From the NCBI GenBank assembly GCA_015234065.1, contig JADFWS010000006.1:1-34563 (forward strand): DNA of 34,563 nucleotides, given 5' to 3'. The stretch is from Candidatus Omnitrophota bacterium. GTDB taxonomy: Bacteria; Omnitrophota; Gorgyraeia; Zapsychrales; Fredricksoniimonadaceae. The notes beneath the pieces were generated by a model that made no database searches, was not told where the DNA came from, and saw only the letters and a list, made by a program, of their open reading frames with translations. Shown piece after piece: positions 1,184 through 20,985 of the stretch; positions within the stretch are counted from its first letter, which is position 1, and each line of letters begins with the position of its first letter. The position numbers and the translations under genes are program-made.

Positions 1184-1223
1184 TTGACTATTCGTATAAA
1201 TCGTATACACTTGTTTACAAGTG
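1184..1223 (+). promoter_or_regulatory. Putative abiE promoter with overlapping operator palindrome
   Basis: TTGACT (1184-1189) and TACACT (1206-1211) are spaced by 16 bases, a reasonable sigma-70-type promoter. The -10 region runs into a 16-bp palindrome, CACTTGT-TT-ACAAGTG (1208-1223), just before the abiEi coding region. AbiEi antitoxins are known to repress their own operon by binding inverted repeats in the promoter, so this palindrome is the natural candidate operator. If the promoter is right, transcription starts near 1218, which favours ATG 1248 over the GTG/ATG at 1221/1224. Confidence 0.45.
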
Positions 1224-1247
1224 ATGGCGAAATATACGAAAACTATT

Positions 1248-1850
1248 ATGGCATCAAAAACAGATCAGCTGATCAGGTTTTTTAAAGCCCAAGGAGCAGT
1301 GGTCAGATTTGCCGCTCTTCTCAAGGCGGGGTTTCATTCTGATACTCTGGCAGCGCTTGAGAAACAAGGGGCGGTTGAAAAAGTAAGCCGGGGCCTTTAT
1401 AAACTCTCGACTTCTTCTGTAAGTTCCCATCCTGATCTTGTTTCAGCTTGCCTTCAAGCGCCCCAAGGCGTTGTTTGCCTTCTTTCCGCACTTTCCTTCT
1501 ATGAAGTGACCAGTGAAATCCCTCGACAAGTGGAGATGGCCATTCCAAGAGGGGTGCGTGTTCGGAAGATCCAGTACCCGCCGGTTAAGCAGTATCAATT
1601 CTCACAAGAAGCATGGGCCGCTGGAATTGAAGAACGTAAAATCGAAGGGCATTCCATTCGCGTTTACGATCTTGCCAAGACAGTGGTGGATTGCTTCAAA
1701 TTCCGCAATAAGGTGGGGGCGGACGTGGCTCGGGAGGCTCTTAAGATCGCCGTGATTGAAAAGCATGTGCCGCCGAAAGATATCATGCATTATGCCAAGA
1801 TTTGCCGGGTGGCAAATATTATTCAGCCGATTCTGGAGGCGATAATATGA
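1248..1850 (+). CDS. abiEi: AbiEi-family antitoxin / transcriptional regulator (type IV TA)
   Basis: About 200 residues. The N-terminal winged-helix domain (TDQLIRFFKAQGAVVRFAALLKAGF, then LEKQGAVEKVSRGLYKL) is the AbiEi_4-type DNA-binding domain that autorepresses abiE operons. The C-terminal region (CLQAPQGVVCLLSALSFYEVTSEIP, VYDLAKTVVDCFKFRNKVG) is the conserved part of the family needed to counter the toxin. The stop codon overlaps the toxin start as ATGA (1847-1850), the usual AbiEi-AbiEii arrangement, so the two are translationally coupled. Starts at 1221 (GTG) and 1224 (ATG) are in frame. I prefer 1248 because MASKTDQL resembles family N-termini and the earlier starts overlap a palindrome. 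Confidence 0.85.
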   Translation: MASKTDQLIRFFKAQGAVVRFAALLKAGFHSDTLAALEKQGAVEKVSRGLYKLSTSSVSSHPDLVSACLQAPQGVVCLLSALSFYEVTSEIPRQVEMAIPRGVRVRKIQYPPVKQYQFSQEAWAAGIEERKIEGHSIRVYDLAKTVVDCFKFRNKVGADVAREALKIAVIEKHVPPKDIMHYAKICRVANIIQPILEAII

Positions 1851-2767
1851 AGAACGATGTAAAGAATATTGAAGCCTCTGTTCGTTCCCGGCTTCAAAAT
1901 AAGGCTAAAGAAACCAACCGTCCATTTGCGGAGGTTCTTCAATATTACGGGATGGAGAGGTTTCTTTACAGATTCAGTTTGTCCGGTTATGCGGATAAAT
2001 TTATTTTAAAAGGCGCGCTGATGTTTACGGCGTGGGAAATCCCTGACCGACGGACTACGCTGGATATCGATTTCTTGGCATATTTTGACAATCAGATCGT
2101 TGCGATCGAAAAAGTGATTAAGGATGTCTGTAAGGTGGCGACGGAGGATGGGCTTCGGTTCGATCTGGACACAGTGATTGGTCAGAAAATAAAAGAGGAC
2201 GCCGACTACCATGGATTGCGCGTGAAGTTTACAGGCTTTCTTGAGCGTTCACGGATTCCGATGCAGATCGATATCGGATTTGGTGATGTCGTGTATCCCA
2301 AGTTTAAGGTGATCGATTATCCGGTTATTTTGGATTTTCCCAAGCCTCATCTTAGAGGGTATCCGGTCGAGAGTGTTGTCAGTGAGAAGTTTGAAGCCAT
2401 GGTCAAGCTTGGCATGTTAAACAGCCGAATGAAGGATTTTTTCGATGTCTGGACCATGATGCGTTGTTTTGATTTTACAGGGGCGGATATTGTTCAGGCG
2501 CTTCAAAAAACATTTGAGCACCGTAAAACGGCATTACCGGTCAAGAAACCTCTTTTTGCGCAGGAAATTTATGATGAGAATTCGGATCGGCAGAAACTTT
2601 GGAAAGCATTTTTGATTAAGGGGCAGATCGAGCATGCTCCGGAGCGGCTTGGCGTGGTGGCAAAAGACATTGAGGATTTTCTTATCAAGCCGGTTGAGGC
2701 CCTGGCAAAAGGGTCAGAGTTTCATAGTGCGTGGAAGGCTTCAGGAAAGTGGATCAGTAAAAAATGA
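1847..2767 (+). CDS. abiEii: AbiEii/AbiGii-family nucleotidyltransferase toxin
   Basis: About 306 residues. The nucleotidyltransferase signature is visible: FILKGALMF near residues 50-60 (the family's KGG-type motif with Ala in place of the second Gly), then RRTTLDIDFLAYF near 68-80 with the paired catalytic Asp residues, then MQIDIGFGD. The stretch VVSEKFEAMVKLGMLNSRMKDFFDVW is the strongly conserved AbiEii helix. Some relatives (MenT-type toxins) transfer nucleotides to tRNA acceptor ends; whether this one does is an inference. ATG 1847 follows the antitoxin with a 4-base overlap. The frame upstream of it (from 1802) lies inside abiEi. The stop overlaps the next gene's ATG at 2764, extending the coupling to a phosphatase. 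Confidence 0.88.
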   Translation: MKNDVKNIEASVRSRLQNKAKETNRPFAEVLQYYGMERFLYRFSLSGYADKFILKGALMFTAWEIPDRRTTLDIDFLAYFDNQIVAIEKVIKDVCKVATEDGLRFDLDTVIGQKIKEDADYHGLRVKFTGFLERSRIPMQIDIGFGDVVYPKFKVIDYPVILDFPKPHLRGYPVESVVSEKFEAMVKLGMLNSRMKDFFDVWTMMRCFDFTGADIVQALQKTFEHRKTALPVKKPLFAQEIYDENSDRQKLWKAFLIKGQIEHAPERLGVVAKDIEDFLIKPVEALAKGSEFHSAWKASGKWISKK

Positions 2768-3459
2768 AGACTTTTGTTAGCGGAGATATCCATGGGGCGT
2801 ACAAGGCGCTTTTGCAGTGCCTTGAGCGTTCCGGTTTTGATTACCAAAAGGACCGTCTGATCGTTTTGGGGGATGTCTGCGACGGTTACCCGGAGGTCCG
2901 GCAGTGTATTGATGAGCTGCTCAAGATCAAGCATTGTGATCTGGTTATTGGCAATCATGACAAATGGGCGCTGGATTGGGCCTTGCGTGGGGATAAGCCG
3001 GAGATCTGGACCGGTCAGGGAGGAGATCGGACGATCGCCTCGTATGATGGTGGGCCGATGCCGCAGAGGCATATTGATTTCTTGAAGAGCGGACAGCTTT
3101 GGCTTGAACTTGATGGGCAGGTTTTTGTTCATGGTGGGCTCAATCCGGATGTGCCGCTTAAGAGTCATAGCGCGGAGGCGCTCATGTGGGACCGGAATCT
3201 TCTTGATACGGCGTGGAAGATGGAGAAGGCTGGTCGAAAGCAAAAGCTGAGCCAGTGGGGTGATAGCTTCTTGGGCCACACTACAACTGAGTTATATCGA
3301 ACATTTGAGCCGATCCATGCGTGCAATGTTTGGGATCTTGATACCGGCGCGGGTTGGTCGGGTAAGCTTACGATCATGAATGTTAGGACGAAGAAATATT
3401 GGCAATCGGATTTTTCGTCTGATCTTTACGGCGGAACACCGGATAAGTTGATGTGGTGA
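2764..3459 (+). CDS. Calcineurin-like metallophosphatase (phage/PP-type)
   Basis: A 231-residue protein with the metallophosphoesterase metal ligands in order: GDIHG at residues 7-11, GDVCDG near 37-42, GNHD near 62-65, VHGG near 124, and GHTTTE near 175. The fold and length match lambda-phosphatase-like serine/threonine phosphatases and diadenosine tetraphosphatases. The true substrate cannot be read from sequence. It begins with an ATGA overlap on the AbiEii stop, so it is probably co-translated with the toxin-antitoxin pair. That is unusual, because abiE loci normally end at the toxin. It may be a passenger of the island or a third component. Confidence 0.85.
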   Translation: MKTFVSGDIHGAYKALLQCLERSGFDYQKDRLIVLGDVCDGYPEVRQCIDELLKIKHCDLVIGNHDKWALDWALRGDKPEIWTGQGGDRTIASYDGGPMPQRHIDFLKSGQLWLELDGQVFVHGGLNPDVPLKSHSAEALMWDRNLLDTAWKMEKAGRKQKLSQWGDSFLGHTTTELYRTFEPIHACNVWDLDTGAGWSGKLTIMNVRTKKYWQSDFSSDLYGGTPDKLMW

Positions 3460-3478
3460 GGGTCAGATTGGAGTTCGT

Positions 3479-3991
3479 ATGAGTTATGTTATGGTCGACA
3501 TTGAGGCTGACGGCCCGATCCCGGGAGACTTTTCGATGGTCTCTTTTGGCGCGGTTATCGTTGAGCCGGGTCTGCATAAGATTTTTTATGGCAAAGTGCG
3601 TCCGATATCGGAGAAGTGGGTTCCTGAAGCGCTTAATGTTAGCGGGTTCAGCCGTGAGGAGACATTGTCGTTTGAAGACCCAAAGTTGGTTATGGAGAGA
3701 TTTGATCGGTGGGTCTGCGAGCAGGCAAAGGACCGGCCGATTTTTGTCGCGGATAATAACGGCTTCGATTGGCAGTTCATTAATTGGTATTTCCATCACT
3801 TTCTTGGACAAAATCCTTTTGGTTTCTCATCGATGAATTTGGGCTCGTTTTATAAGGGGCTGCTGAAGGATGTTCGGAAGAGCTTTAAGCATCTGCGCAA
3901 GACACCGCATACACATAATCCGGTTGATGATGCCAAGGGGAATGCTGAGGCTCTCTTGGCAATGATTCAGGAGTTTGAGTTGGTTATGTAA
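3479..3991 (+). CDS. DEDDh-type 3'-5' exonuclease (RNase T/DnaQ superfamily)
   Basis: A 170-residue stand-alone exonuclease domain. Exo I is VDIEADGP (Asp7, Glu9), Exo II lies in ADNNGFDWQF, and Exo III is HNPVDDAKGNAEAL with His146 four residues before Asp151, which defines the DEDDh subclass. The size fits small RNA- or DNA-trimming exonucleases rather than a polymerase subunit. ATG 3479 is preceded by GGAG at a suitable distance. It lies 19 bases after the phosphatase and probably belongs to the same transcript. Known relatives trim RNA 3' ends, including tRNA. The substrate here is not known. Confidence 0.82.
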   Translation: MSYVMVDIEADGPIPGDFSMVSFGAVIVEPGLHKIFYGKVRPISEKWVPEALNVSGFSREETLSFEDPKLVMERFDRWVCEQAKDRPIFVADNNGFDWQFINWYFHHFLGQNPFGFSSMNLGSFYKGLLKDVRKSFKHLRKTPHTHNPVDDAKGNAEALLAMIQEFELVM

Positions 3992-15771: not shown

Positions 15772-16452
15772 ATGCATGGATGGGAAATCGTGATCATTGA
15801 TCCGGTAAAGAACATGCTCAGTTCGGTGGCGGTCTTTTTACCGCGCATGCTAGGGGCGCTCGTGATCCTTTTGGTGGGTTGGATCATTGCCAAGGTGTTA
15901 AGCGGGCTTTTTCAGAAACTTCTGGATGGTGTCAAATTCAATACGTTTTCGGCTGAGATCGGTTTGAGCGACTTGCTTTCCAAGGGCGGCGTGGTTTTAG
16001 CGCCGGTAGCGCTTTTAGGGGCTTTGGTCTATTGGGCGGTCATGATCATTGTATTTGCGGTTACGGTCGACAGCATGGGGCTGACCGTTGCGGCACAGCT
16101 TTTGGAAAAGATCGTTGGTTATATTCCGAATGTGGCATCCGCGGTGTTCGTGGCGATCGTGGGTACATTCTTCGCGAATCTTGTGGCCGGGATCGTTAAG
16201 ACGGCAGCGACGAACGCGAGTTTGTCCCGTGCCGAGCTTTTGGCTTCGATCTCCAAGGGCGCGATCGTGGTGTTCACGACCGTGCTGGTGTTTGAAGAGC
16301 TGAATATTGCGGCGCTTTTTGTCGGCGTGACATTCCAGATCTTCTTTGCCGCGATCTGCTTTGGACTCGCGCTGGCATTCGGGTTGGGCGGAAAAGACCT
16401 GGCATCCAAGATCCTGTGGGACTTCTTCAATAAACAGAATGAAAAGAAATAA
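15772..16452 (+). CDS. Conserved TM-helix protein, mechanosensitive-channel related
   Basis: 226 residues, very good ribosome-binding site (AAGGAGG). About five hydrophobic helices are visible. The first, LPRMLGALVILLVGWIIAKVLSGLFQKLL, is the conserved TM-helix repeat found in small-conductance channel relatives. It recurs as ASAVFVAIVGTFFANLVAGIVKTAA. The length and lack of an MscS beta domain place it in the TM_helix family rather than true MscS. The protein ends in a Lys-rich tail (KQNEKK). A strong terminator lies 20 bases downstream, so its transcript probably ends there. Confidence 0.75.
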   Translation: MHGWEIVIIDPVKNMLSSVAVFLPRMLGALVILLVGWIIAKVLSGLFQKLLDGVKFNTFSAEIGLSDLLSKGGVVLAPVALLGALVYWAVMIIVFAVTVDSMGLTVAAQLLEKIVGYIPNVASAVFVAIVGTFFANLVAGIVKTAATNASLSRAELLASISKGAIVVFTTVLVFEELNIAALFVGVTFQIFFAAICFGLALAFGLGGKDLASKILWDFFNKQNEKK

Positions 16453-18484
16453 TTGTTCTCAGGTTGATGATAAAAAGCGCGGGGCTTTCGAGCTCCGCGC
16501 TTTTTTATTGGGGGTCATCTCAAGCCTGGCGCAGGTCGCGCTGGTGCGCGAGCTTTTGACTGCTTTTTACGGCAATGAAGTGGCATATGTTTTGGTCCTG
16601 TTATTGTGGCTTGCGGGCAATGCGCTGGGCGCGTGGAGTGCGGGCAGGCGGCGTGGAAGTGCAACGGTATTTTTAGTCGGGGCGGTTCTTTTATTGCCTG
16701 CCAGCATTGTTTTGATCAGGTTATTCAGGATTATTCTCGGCCTTGCGATGGGTGAGGATGTCGGGCCTGCGTTTGTATGTGTTGCGGCAGTTGTTGCGAT
16801 CGTGCCGGTGAGTATTCTTTTAGGCGCCTGTTTCACAGCGCTTGTTCGTGCGGGAAAAACAGCGGTTAGAGTGTATACGTTTGAAGCGGCAGGATTTTTA
16901 GCAGGCGGCTTGCTCAGTGTTATTTGGCTTCCGATGGTAATGGGTTTTTTAGATGCCGGGCCTTTGCATTTTACGCGGGAGTTGCAGTGGCCTGGGTATC
17001 ATCTGGTGGCGACCCAGGAATCGCCTTACGGGAATATTGTCCTTTTGGAAAAAGGAGGGGCGTATTCCATGTTCGAAAATGGCCAGCGGATGTTCACGAC
17101 GGGAGATGTTCTGTTTTCAGAGGAACGCGTTCATTTTGCGTTGTTGTCACATTCGGCGCCGCGGCGCGTGCTGTTGATCGGCAGCGGGATGGGTGGTGCG
17201 CTGGAAGAAGTGCTGAAGTATCCGGAAGTGATGGTGGATGATGCAGAGCTTGATCCTGCCGCGGTTGATATGGGGCGCAGATATATTCCGGGTGTTGGCC
17301 GGGCTTTGTCTGATGCGCGGATCCGGGTTGTTTCGGGTGATGCCCGGGCGCTGGTGCGGCGTATGCACGGGCAATATGATGTTATTATTGCTGGCAGCAT
17401 GCCGCCATTAAGCCTGTTGGCGAACCGATATTACACGGTAGAGTTTTTCAAAGAGGCGTTCGAGGCGCTTCGTCCTGATGGTGTATTGTCTTTTTCTGCG
17501 CCGGCATCTGAAAACTATTTGAATTCAGAGGCGAAACGGGTGTTGCGGGGGCTTTACACGACGGCAAAAGGTGTATTTCCTGAGGTTAAGGTTTTGCCGG
17601 GGGATCAGTATATTTTTCTTGCCGGAAAATTGCCCGGGACCGTGACGGATCGCGCGGATGTGCTTGCTGTACGCTTGAAGGCGCGTGCGATCAGGACGAA
17701 ATTCGTTCAAGAATATTATGTTGCGTCGCGGTTAAGCCCGGACCGGATGGCCAACGTGTCCGCGCTTGTTGATGTGCCCGGCGAGGTCAATACGGACCTT
17801 CGCCCCGCGGGATTTATGGCGGCGGTGGCGTATCAGGCCACGCATGCGTCAGACATGGTTCCCAAAGTTTTTGATATTTTTAAAGCCTGGGGTTGGGTCG
17901 TGTTTCTGATCCCGGTGTTCGCGGCTGGCGGCATGTTGATGGCGCGTTCCGGGAGTAAGCTGCCCGTGGGTACGGTCATGGTGGCGGCAGGCTTTGTCGG
18001 GATCGCGCTGCAGATCGCGGCATTGTTTGTGTATCAGGCGAAAGTCGGTTATTCGTATATGGCTGTCGGGATATTTTCGGCGCTTTTTATGGGAGGGGCC
18101 GTCCTGGGAAGCCGGGTGGGGCGATGGTCGGATCAGGGGCTTTTGTCGTGTGTGAGAGGCCTGTGTTTTTCCGGCGGGATCTTTGCCTGGATATTATTGC
18201 TGCATCCTGATGGAGGCATGGCATCCTGGGCGTGTTTTACGGCGTCGTTAGCTGCCGGGTTGTCGACGGGGGCGTTCTTTTCCTGGGCGCTATCTGTCAC
18301 TAAAGAAGGCTTTGCCGGAACGCTGTATGCGCTGGATCTTTCCGGCGCAGTGCTCGGAACGCTCTGCACCGGAATATTCATCCTGCCTATCTGGGGCGTT
18401 GAAGGGCTTGCGCTTTTGTGTGTCTGGATTGCGGCATGTCTCGCGGCGGGATTTTATCCCAGCAGAGAATCGGCTGACCTGTAA
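16439..18484 (+). CDS. Membrane-embedded spermidine-synthase-like protein
   Basis: About 681 residues from ATG 16439, which overlaps the upstream gene by 14 bases. The 16346 start of the track is internal to that gene. A TTG at 16508, after the terminator, is an alternative start. An N-terminal block of about six helices is followed by a spermidine-synthase-like Rossmann domain: YGNIVLLEKGGAYSMFENGQ, LLIGSGMGG, DDAELDP, VVSGDARALV, YDVIIAGSMPP. A C-terminal block of about six or seven helices follows. In true SpeE the nucleotide motif is GGGDGG and the catalytic Asp is in YDVIxxDxxDP. Here they read GSGMGG and YDVIIAGSMPP, so polyamine synthesis is unlikely. Similar fused membrane proteins are common in environmental bacteria and have no known function. 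Confidence 0.72.
   Translation: MKRNNCSQVDDKKRGAFELRAFLLGVISSLAQVALVRELLTAFYGNEVAYVLVLLLWLAGNALGAWSAGRRRGSATVFLVGAVLLLPASIVLIRLFRIILGLAMGEDVGPAFVCVAAVVAIVPVSILLGACFTALVRAGKTAVRVYTFEAAGFLAGGLLSVIWLPMVMGFLDAGPLHFTRELQWPGYHLVATQESPYGNIVLLEKGGAYSMFENGQRMFTTGDVLFSEERVHFALLSHSAPRRVLLIGSGMGGALEEVLKYPEVMVDDAELDPAAVDMGRRYIPGVGRALSDARIRVVSGDARALVRRMHGQYDVIIAGSMPPLSLLANRYYTVEFFKEAFEALRPDGVLSFSAPASENYLNSEAKRVLRGLYTTAKGVFPEVKVLPGDQYIFLAGKLPGTVTDRADVLAVRLKARAIRTKFVQEYYVASRLSPDRMANVSALVDVPGEVNTDLRPAGFMAAVAYQATHASDMVPKVFDIFKAWGWVVFLIPVFAAGGMLMARSGSKLPVGTVMVAAGFVGIALQIAALFVYQAKVGYSYMAVGIFSALFMGGAVLGSRVGRWSDQGLLSCVRGLCFSGGIFAWILLLHPDGGMASWACFTASLAAGLSTGAFFSWALSVTKEGFAGTLYALDLSGAVLGTLCTGIFILPIWGVEGLALLCVWIAACLAAGFYPSRESADL
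16472..16506 (+). terminator. Strong intrinsic terminator with UUCG loop
   Basis: A 15-bp stem (AAAAAGCGCGGGGCT / AGCTCCGCGCTTTTT, one G-U pair) closes a TTCG tetraloop, and the 3' arm runs into TTTTTT. This is a textbook intrinsic terminator for the channel-like gene ending at 16452. Unusually, it lies inside the N-terminal coding region of the following spermidine-synthase-like gene, where it encodes DDKKRGAFELRAFL. Confidence 0.85.
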
Positions 18485-18612
18485 AAGCGCGCTTCTTTAA
18501 GACTGATTTTGATGGCATCTTTGTTGAAGAAGTCAAAGCCCTTCAAGAATTTTGGCGCGAAAAAGCCTGCCAGGGAGAGGCCGCAGATCTTCAGGAATTG
18601 ACGTCTGTCCAT
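18454..18612 (-). CDS. 52-aa Tat-leader peptide downstream of amrS
   Basis: Too short for the ORF track. On the minus strand, ATG 18612 is preceded by GGGAGG, which touches the amrS stop codon 9 bases upstream, so it is clearly set up for coupled translation. The peptide begins MDRRQFLKICGLSLAGFFAP, a twin-arginine-type signal (RRQFLK then a hydrophobic stretch). It ends after ~30 more residues (KISLKEARFYRSADSLLG). From memory, many bacterial AmrS-type proteins carry a Tat leader and a similar EA.YY-type segment fused in front of the radical SAM domain. Here that piece seems to be separate and located after the enzyme. It overlaps the convergent gene's end by 31 bases. Confidence 0.6.
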   Translation of the reverse strand: MDRRQFLKICGLSLAGFFAPKFLKGFDFFNKDAIKISLKEARFYRSADSLLG

Positions 18613-18621
18613 AAGCCTCCC

Positions 18622-19596
18622 TTATTTCCAGATGCCGGGTATCACGGCTTTGCAATGGCCGCAGGTACCGTCATTCAAATGGTTTTCTGTGATCGCAAAG
18701 CCCTGCCGGCCGATGATTATTTTTTGGCATGTTGGGCAGAAGGTGTTGTTGCCCGGATGGTCCGGCAGGTTCCCGACGTACACAAAGGACAGTCCTTCGG
18801 CCTTGCCAATGTCCCAGGCGCGGGTGATCGTGCTTTCCGGCGTAGGCGGGAGGTTGAGGAGCTTGTGCATGGGCCAAAAGCGTGAAAAATGCAAGGGCGT
18901 GTCTTTGCCCAGATGGTCTTTGACCCAGCGGCAGAGCGTGCGGATGTCGTTATCCGTATCGTTCCACGTCGGGACGATCAGGTTTGTGACTTCGAGCCAG
19001 AGGCCTTTGTTGCGCATCGTGACGGCGGCATCGAGAACGGGTTTAAGCGTGGCGCCGCACATTTTTTTATAGAAATCTTCCGTCATGCCTTTGATCGTCA
19101 GATTGGCGCCGTGGCTGACGCGGCATAGTTCAATTAACGGGTCCTGTTCGATATATCCGGCCGTGACGAGGAGATTCAGAAGGCCTTCTTTTTTTGCACG
19201 CGCGGCAATATCTTCGGCATATTCGTAGAAAATGACAGGGTCGGAATAGGTATAGGCAAGGCTGCGGCAGTCATGACGCAGGGCCTGGGATACGGCGTCA
19301 TCGGGCACGAGATCGATATTTTCGGTCTCTTCCGGCGGGCGTTGGGATATTTCCCAATTCTGGCAATAGAGGCAGTGAAGATTGCATCCGGCGGTCGCCA
19401 GAGAAAAGGACCTGCTTCCGGGCAAGATATGAAAGAACGGCTTTTTCTCGATGGGGTCGATATGGACAGAGCAGGGCTTGCCGTAGACGAGCGAAAAAAG
19501 TTTCCCGCCGACATTGGTGCGTACCCGGCAGTTGCCGCGGGCGCCCTCGATGATCACACAGCGCCGGGGGCATAAGAAGCAGGTCACGGGTTTCAT
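18622..19596 (-). CDS. amrS: AmrS-family radical SAM protein (AmmeMemoRadiSam)
   Basis: 324 residues. The radical SAM cluster motif is CNLHCLYC (CX3CX2C). An N-terminal Cys region (CFLCPRRCVI, CRVRTN) and the block LVYGKPCSVHIDPIEKKPFFHILPG are typical of the AmrS/pyruvate-formate-lyase-activase-like family. A C-terminal zinc-ribbon-like segment CPTCQKIII...GTCGHC ends at PGIWK. The family usually occurs with AMMECR1 and MEMO proteins; neither is in this window. Its reaction is unknown. The start overlaps the upstream small membrane gene by ATGA, and the neighbours suggest a link to a membrane flavin/Fe-S electron path. Confidence 0.88.
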   Translation of the reverse strand: MKPVTCFLCPRRCVIIEGARGNCRVRTNVGGKLFSLVYGKPCSVHIDPIEKKPFFHILPGSRSFSLATAGCNLHCLYCQNWEISQRPPEETENIDLVPDDAVSQALRHDCRSLAYTYSDPVIFYEYAEDIAARAKKEGLLNLLVTAGYIEQDPLIELCRVSHGANLTIKGMTEDFYKKMCGATLKPVLDAAVTMRNKGLWLEVTNLIVPTWNDTDNDIRTLCRWVKDHLGKDTPLHFSRFWPMHKLLNLPPTPESTITRAWDIGKAEGLSFVYVGNLPDHPGNNTFCPTCQKIIIGRQGFAITENHLNDGTCGHCKAVIPGIWK

Positions 19597-19778
19597 GGTT
19601 TCCAGTATTTCCCTTCATGTAGCGTGAGCCCCATGGCATTGAACTTTTGCGCCCATTCCTGCGGCGTGAAGCGGGATGCCGGCTCAGGGTTCAGACCAGT
19701 ATATATGACCGTCAGTATAAGCGCTGCTGAAAAAGCGACAAGCAGTGTAAAGGCAAAATCATTTCTTTGAGCAGGCAT
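19593..19778 (-). CDS. 61-aa single-pass membrane peptide
   Basis: The track lists 71 residues from 19808. I prefer ATG 19778 because it shortens the overlap with the upstream gene to 20 bases and has GGAG upstream. The peptide has one hydrophobic helix (FAFTLLVAFSAALILTVIYTGL, residues ~8-29) and a short soluble tail (TPQEWAQKFNAMGLTLHEGKYWKP). Its stop overlaps amrS as ATGA. I do not recognise the family. Tight coupling on both sides argues that it is a real component of the flavoprotein/AmrS operon, perhaps a small accessory subunit. Confidence 0.6.
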   Translation of the reverse strand: MPAQRNDFAFTLLVAFSAALILTVIYTGLNPEPASRFTPQEWAQKFNAMGLTLHEGKYWKP

Positions 19779-20985
19779 GGGGTCCAAACTCCAATTGGCC
19801 GGCGACACAGCTGTTCAGGCAGTTGCCGCAGAGGATACATTCGGCGGCGTTAATGAGCGGCCGTTTGTTGTTATCGAGGCTGATGGCGTGCGTGGGGCAG
19901 GCGCTGATACACGCGGCACAGCGAGCACAGCGTGGCTTCACCCGAATTTTAAAGAAGCTGAAAGCGCCGGCCAGGCCAGTTAATGCTCCGACGGGACAAA
20001 GATGTGTGCACCAGAACCGGAAGTAAAAGATCGCGAGGATGATCATCAGGCATAAAAAGCCGGCCGCGAGCGTTGACCCGTGGCCTGTAAAGAGCGTAAT
20101 AAAAACTTCGATATTGGCAGCGGCGGAATCATTGCGGATAAAACAAAGGCCTAAAACTAAAAAAAGAAGCGCATATTTCACGTAGCGTGTGTTTTGGTCT
20201 GTGGTTACGGATATAGGGAAAGTGCGCACACGGCGTTTTCCAAAAAGTTTAAACAGCAGGTCCTGGAGAAGCGCGAAGGGGCAAAGGCTTCCGCAATAGA
20301 TCCTCCCGACGACAAATGTGGCCGCCAGGCCGAGAAGCAATGTCATGAACCAAAGAGGTTGTGCAAAGAATCCCGGGATGTTGCCGAGCGCGGCGTTGGC
20401 GATCTGAATGATCGAGAGCATGGTTTTGGTGATCAGCCCAAAATAGATAAACCCTCCGAGCATGGCGGCCCAGCGCAGGAGCGTATTTTTTAAGAGCAAC
20501 GCGGTTAAGGCGAGGGCTAAAAGAACGACAGGGATCAGGATGGTGGCCCAGTTGATCGGCGGTGTTTTGATCGAATGCGGCTTTTGAGCGGCTTGCGCGA
20601 GGCAGGCGTGGATAGTATTTGTGATCGCTTTGTGTGAAATCGTAGCGCCTGAAATGCCGTCGATGTCATAGCCGAGGGACAGAGGGCTTGCAAAAGTCTT
20701 TCCAATGAATTGTTTGACGAAGAGGCTTAAATCGCCGGTATAGGAAAATGTTTCGTTGTTTTTGAGGACATCAATGTTCGTTATTGTGCCGTTCGGCCCG
20801 ATAAAAACGCGCAGCGGAATGTGCCCGCCATAGCCTTGGATTTCAGGCGCTACCTTGTGGGACAGAAGCACGATGATTCCGGGTTGGGCGTCAACAAGGG
20901 CAGGCTCGTCTGTTCGAAAAAATAAAGACACAGCACCGATGCTTAAGAAAACAATAAAAACACTCGCTAAAATCTTAATGTGCAT
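19759..20985 (-). CDS. NosR/RnfG-like FMN-binding polyferredoxin membrane protein
   Basis: 408 residues. An N-terminal anchor (ILASVFIVFLSIGAVSLFF) leads to an extracytoplasmic FMN-binding domain with the flavinylation motif DGISGATISH (SGAT, Thr115), the site where ApbE attaches FMN in RnfG/NqrC/NosR relatives. About four to six helices follow, with GSLCPFALLQDLLFKLFGKRR and THLCPVGAL, the CxxxCP motifs of NapH/NosR-type proteins. A C-terminal pair of [4Fe-4S] motifs is CARCAACISACP and CILCGNCLNSC. The architecture is that of a transmembrane electron conduit. No apbE or nitrous-oxide reductase gene is nearby. It heads the minus-strand operon with the 61-aa peptide, amrS and the Tat peptide. 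Its mRNA may be leaderless. Confidence 0.85.
   Translation of the reverse strand: MHIKILASVFIVFLSIGAVSLFFRTDEPALVDAQPGIIVLLSHKVAPEIQGYGGHIPLRVFIGPNGTITNIDVLKNNETFSYTGDLSLFVKQFIGKTFASPLSLGYDIDGISGATISHKAITNTIHACLAQAAQKPHSIKTPPINWATILIPVVLLALALTALLLKNTLLRWAAMLGGFIYFGLITKTMLSIIQIANAALGNIPGFFAQPLWFMTLLLGLAATFVVGRIYCGSLCPFALLQDLLFKLFGKRRVRTFPISVTTDQNTRYVKYALLFLVLGLCFIRNDSAAANIEVFITLFTGHGSTLAAGFLCLMIILAIFYFRFWCTHLCPVGALTGLAGAFSFFKIRVKPRCARCAACISACPTHAISLDNNKRPLINAAECILCGNCLNSCVAGQLEFGPHACSKK

Follow-up and report, generated by a model that had tools for sequence, protein, structure and literature searches.

The window (the whole stretch of DNA analysed, 34,563 nt) carries on its minus strand a compact set of four genes, which encode a membrane flavoprotein, a small membrane-anchored protein (uP), the radical SAM enzyme AmrS and a short peptide (dP); neighbouring genes of the set overlap or nearly touch. 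The features considered here are as follows.

16346-18484, plus strand: polytopic spermidine-synthase-like gene, convergent, whose 3' end overlaps dP by 31 nt
18454-18612, minus strand: dP, a stand-alone Tat-leader peptide of 52 aa, MDRRQFLKICGLSLAGFFAPKFLKGFDFFNKDAIKISLKEARFYRSADSLLG
18457-18498, minus strand: tail of dP, sharing homology with the N-terminal strand that one-piece AmrS carries, and with a conserved (L)AG-COOH end
18553-18612, minus strand: Tat-type n- and h-region of dP, MDRRQFLKICGLSLAGFFAP, of low hydropathy, with R3 invariant and F6 nearly invariant (n=33)
18616-18621, minus strand: Shine-Dalgarno-like GGGAGG of dP
18622-19596, minus strand: amrS, AmmeMemoRadiSam radical SAM enzyme, 324 aa, signal-less, with CxxxCxxC kept
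19593-19808, minus strand: uP, membrane-anchored ORF, 71 aa from GTG 19808 or 61 aa from ATG 19778
19759-20985, minus strand: NosR/PceC-like membrane flavoprotein (FMN_bind, NapH-type 4Fe-4S), overlapping uP

The dP gene and its conservation

A sequence-only reading of this DNA had proposed a 52-aa ORF after amrS with a ribosome-binding site touching the amrS stop, and both are present as described; amrS ends in GIWK-TAA, the GGGAGG of dP stands directly 3' of this TAA and is followed by CTT-ATG, leaving a short spacing of 3 nt between GGGAGG and ATG and 9 nt between the amrS stop and the dP start. It had also been suggested that lack of conservation in related genomes would speak against the peptide; a profile search over 92 related genomes finds dP immediately 3' of amrS in 33 of them, the relatives of the window contig (G000:C143) being Omnitrophota, and a few loci that bear the label of other phyla or groups (L087, L104) have dP as well. 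In the alignment of 33 sequences A41 and G52 are invariant along with R3, and Y44 and L50 are nearly so along with F6. The dN/dS ratio is ~0.08-0.49 in measurable pairs, i.e. below 1, with changes mostly at third codon positions. dP is thus confirmed as a real conserved gene under purifying selection.

Conservation and dN/dS rule out a chance ORF. dP may have originated as a degraded second amrS, but the purifying selection rules this out as its present state. A further dP-like place in the window's own genome (G000:C3) proved to be noise within an unrelated region.

The polytopic spermidine-synthase-like gene recurs near amrS, convergent or on the same strand, in the window and in L076, L161, L162, L166, L168, L170, L171, L173, L175, L177 and L178. 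This suggests that its product is functionally linked to amrS, perhaps to SAM-type cofactors.

Leader and tail of dP, and the shortened AmrS

The leader of dP is probably of Tat type, as the sequence-only reading had it; the second arginine of its RR signal varies among relatives, residues 3-4 being RR in 22, RK in 8 and RS, RN or RA in 3 (n=33). Mean hydropathy is 1.56 for dP, which is Tat-like and unlike a TM anchor, versus 2.72 for uP. The dP of the window matches no NCBIfam family over its cut-off and reaches PF10518 (TAT_signal) at E 0.15, below the cut-off; at E values up to 1, TIGR01409 (TAT_signal_seq) is matched by 13 of 33 relatives and PF10518 by 15 of 33. Two of nine relatives checked exceed the TIGR01409 cut-off, and the over-cut-off matches among relatives are to generic Tat-signal models only. 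For formate_TAT (TIGR02811) the best relative scores 17.4 bits against a cut-off of 48.45, and the window dP gives no match. On reading the sequence, the window dP displays no obvious AxA cleavage motif past the h-region.

The stretch behind the leader, described earlier simply as a short tail, is the best-conserved portion of dP and always has Gly-stop at its end; the consensus is KEAxxYxxxDxLAG-stop. The N-terminal positions of one-piece AmrS that are missing from the window AmrS read [K/R]EAxxYxxLxxxxVxCxLCP. A PSSM of 25 dP tails, with the last three residues left out, was run along the full length of 37 fused (one-piece) AmrS proteins drawn from many phyla; in 30 of these the top-scoring position lies no more than 30 residues ahead of the first Cys, mostly at an offset of -16, -15 or -18. 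Profile A1, built from dP only, matches the N-termini of fused Tat-AmrS ORFs (~370-435 aa) to positions 44-47 of 51; its matches in other large proteins mostly end at ~20-32. In an AF2 model of a natural Tat-AmrS fusion (L094) the segment KEARHYRVID, with a pLDDT of 83-96 (block means), comes out as an ordered strand belonging to the AmrS fold, and strand 50-54 adjoins strand 57-60; the Tat leader is poorly defined. That AmrS of other lineages can begin with a fused Tat-like leader is borne out in L089, L094, L101, L106, L108, L118, L128, L177 and L193, and the comparison with such N-termini, which had been proposed, finds on dP the matching element that the window AmrS lacks. Sequence comparison shows the dP tail to be a homologue of the N-terminal strand that the window AmrS is without. 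The LAG-COOH end has no counterpart in fused AmrS forms and is kept despite a degenerate EAxxY in L159 (KKDIYLKHNLAG) and L161 (RDSDLYKKHNLAG); it could be the end of the strand, a C-terminal protease recognition signal or a modified site.

The window AmrS matches TIGR04337 with 356.4 bits (cut-off 220) and is aligned only from profile position 12, the first 11 positions being missing; C71, C75 and C78 of the CxxxCxxC motif are invariant in alignment A4. AmrS proteins encoded beside dP mostly begin at about position 7-12 of this profile and have no leader of their own. By a strict rule, dP is found in 45 of 63 loci with core AmrS (its own element missing) versus none of 67 loci with the element; the split form with dP is essentially one clade in the AmrS tree (3 changes for fused or not, 7 for dP), so the Fisher p-value of this contrast is not independent evidence. 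The same tree traces the split/dP state to essentially a single ancient event that was long kept, not to many independent ones. Some of the 18 core loci without dP differ at the AmrS N-terminus (a CxxCH insert in AmrS of Chloroflexi type) or have a Tat-like ORF that ends differently. Inside the split clade, G005 has a core AmrS, and no dP, convincing uP or TatC was found there.

Two further arrangements of AmrS were observed. In L128 and L177 two AmrS genes stand in tandem, both fused to a leader of their own; loss of one body from such a pair is a possible source of dP. A CxxCH...CH domain, possibly heme- or metal-binding, is inserted between the EAxxY element and the AmrS core in L072, L077, L078, L079, L084, L093 and L107; AmrS proteins bearing it are mostly Anaerolineae/Chloroflexi-labelled.

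uP, the NosR-like partner and genome context

The tail of uP, GLTLHEGKYWKP at 19596-19631 (minus strand), is the AmrS N-terminal element also found on dP, without the LAG; the A/G plus aromatic pair of uP falls on the same AmrS positions as the pair of dP. uP overlaps the amrS ATG by 4 nt (ATGA), and uP-equivalent ORFs end at the amrS start in most split loci. The sequence-only reading of dP as a split and re-ordered leader stands insofar as the element missing from AmrS sits on dP; uP carries this element too, so the AmrS N-terminus is offered twice and has not simply been moved. Since uP offers the element as well and is more tightly coupled to amrS, the role of resident N-terminus may not fall to dP.

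In L002, L009, L011, L016, L023 and L024 uP is a C-terminal extension of the NosR-like protein. L170 (G037:C2, 10-2064) encodes one 684-aa protein in the order FMN domain, TMs, Fe-S, TM, element and AmrS. The FMN domain of PceC and NosR faces outward (PMC5928378); given this orientation and the helix count, the AmrS part of L170, which follows the last TM of the NosR-like protein, would lie outside by the usual topology. The L170 fusion suggests that an extracytoplasmic radical SAM enzyme receives its electrons through a NosR-type route.

TatC (G000:C176, E 4.4e-61) is encoded in the window's own genome, as is a Memo-AMMECR1 fusion with a Sec signal. When genomes of at least 85% completeness are compared, without correction for phylogeny, TatC is present in 25 of 25 with dP versus 26 of 40 without dP. 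Where the search found no TatC, AmrS has non-RR TM or Sec leaders (G045, G048, G059, G082, G084, G085, G090); no TatC was found in G037 either, which has the NosR-AmrS fusion instead, and RR-fused AmrS occurs in the TatC-positive genomes G083, G087 and G088. In the window and most of its close relatives Memo lies elsewhere in the genome and dP is still by amrS; dP lies between amrS and a secreted Memo-AMMECR1 gene in L070, L155, L157, L158, L165 and L167. A separate observation is L171 (G085:C15), where an ORF at 1199-3748 in amrS orientation encodes an AmrS-Memo-AMMECR1 protein of 849 aa with an N-terminal signal or TM.

A proposed Tat leader acting in trans

As dP is conserved and its tail copies the front strand missing from AmrS, dP most likely docks on AmrS and exports it; it is considered slightly more probable than not that dP is the Tat leader and first β-strand of AmrS on a separate chain, which docks, exports its cargo and hands it over to uP. 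In the cytoplasm the tail (KEARFYRSADSLLG) would fill the vacant edge of folded, Fe-S-loaded AmrS; by analogy with Tat hitchhikers, the dP-AmrS complex would next engage the Tat system through the twin-arginine leader of dP and be moved across the membrane. Once outside, AmrS would pass to the equivalent strand of uP, which forms the membrane tail of the NosR-like electron conduit. We infer each of these steps (docking, Tat export, hand-over to uP and extracytoplasmic work of AmrS) from the evidence above. A more far-reaching version, that a stand-alone signal peptide exports a radical SAM enzyme via Tat by strand complementation and that the NosR-like strand replaces it to give a membrane-bound extracytoplasmic AmmeMemoRadiSam machine, is put forward tentatively.

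Several observations count against a leader in trans: the second arginine of dP is K, S, N or A in 11 of 33 sequences, LAG-COOH is kept where EAxxY is degenerate, and L012, which is TatC-positive and has a core AmrS with uP, lacks dP. An AF2 model of an AmrS-TAA-dP read-through displayed no docking and a dP pLDDT below 50, for a single chain whose tail was without alignment depth; in the joint dP-AmrS alignment made for AF2 (A2) the dP rows spread across AmrS, and it was not used.

Homology of the tail to the AmrS strand would also fit if dP were an uncleaved Tat or N-terminal signal anchor that tethers AmrS through this strand without exporting it; several fused AmrS proteins carry TM rather than Tat leaders, and an AxA motif after the h-region of the window dP is not obvious. 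This is nevertheless thought improbable, as the same element already sits on uP, a clear membrane anchor, the hydropathy of dP is low and Tat-like, every dP-bearing genome of at least 85% completeness has TatC, and the position of AmrS behind the last NosR-like TM in L170 would place it outside.

dP may instead be an independent Tat substrate, namely a small protein acting on Memo-AMMECR1 or the NosR-like partner with a borrowed AmrS-like tail, such as the relic of a tandem Tat-AmrS gene. Tandem genes of this kind do exist (L128, L177), dP lies next to the secreted Memo-AMMECR1 gene in the six loci named above, and the 17.4-bit score is a weak formate_TAT match of one dP member; a relic, however, would not stay under purifying selection or retain an invariant end across this many genera, and dP stays by amrS where Memo is elsewhere, which leaves this reading with a still smaller chance. 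The least probable reading considered is that dP is a substrate of AmrS, with radical SAM modification of its C-terminal ...LAG and a leader that exports the product: a short peptide beside a radical SAM gene, a very C-terminus that is its most constant part (G52 in 33/33) and the relationship of AmrS to glycyl-radical activases (the only solved relatives found are pyruvate formate-lyase activases) would suit it, but no peptide of this kind accompanies AmrS in fused and canonical systems, the tail is accounted for as the AmrS N-terminus, and uP carries the same element without LAG.

Export of AmrS by dP, if it holds, would be a novel variation on Tat hitchhiking. Hydrogenase HybOC and PaoABC of E. 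coli are Tat hitchhiker complexes (PMC4273604, PMC10924467) in which, as proposed for dP-AmrS, a signal-less cofactor-bearing protein is carried by a twin-arginine partner; that partner is a full subunit, whereas dP is little more than a leader and one strand homologous to its cargo. The tyrosinase caddie MelC1/MelC2 of Streptomyces (PMC2758597) likewise pairs a small helper bearing a Tat leader with a signal-less hitchhiking enzyme in one operon; MelC1 is a folded copper-loading helper encoded upstream, whereas the dP gene lies downstream of its enzyme gene and specifies no folded domain. Two features of hitchhiker and caddie systems are found here, a signal-less AmrS encoded beside the leader-bearing dP and TatC in the genome. 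One-piece Tat-AmrS proteins (TIGR04337; L094, L089, L128) share the leader type and a homologous KEAxxY strand with dP; their leader is covalent and N-terminal and has no LAG end, whereas dP is separate and has one. The formate dehydrogenase region TAT target (TIGR02811) resembles dP as a short stand-alone Tat protein in a redox-enzyme operon; dP is below its cut-off, and the TIGR02811 protein is not known to share homology with the N-terminus of the neighbouring enzyme. The open literature searched yielded no paper describing a Tat leader for AmmeMemoRadiSam, and a search for fdhX returned nothing.

Radical SAM enzymes require SAM and low-potential electrons. If export in trans is correct, a Tat leader needs neither a covalent link to its cargo nor a folded subunit, and a peptide of ~50 residues that completes the fold of its cargo would both mark that cargo as folded and export it; it would also become testable why a radical SAM enzyme repeatedly acquires export leaders and a NosR-like conduit.
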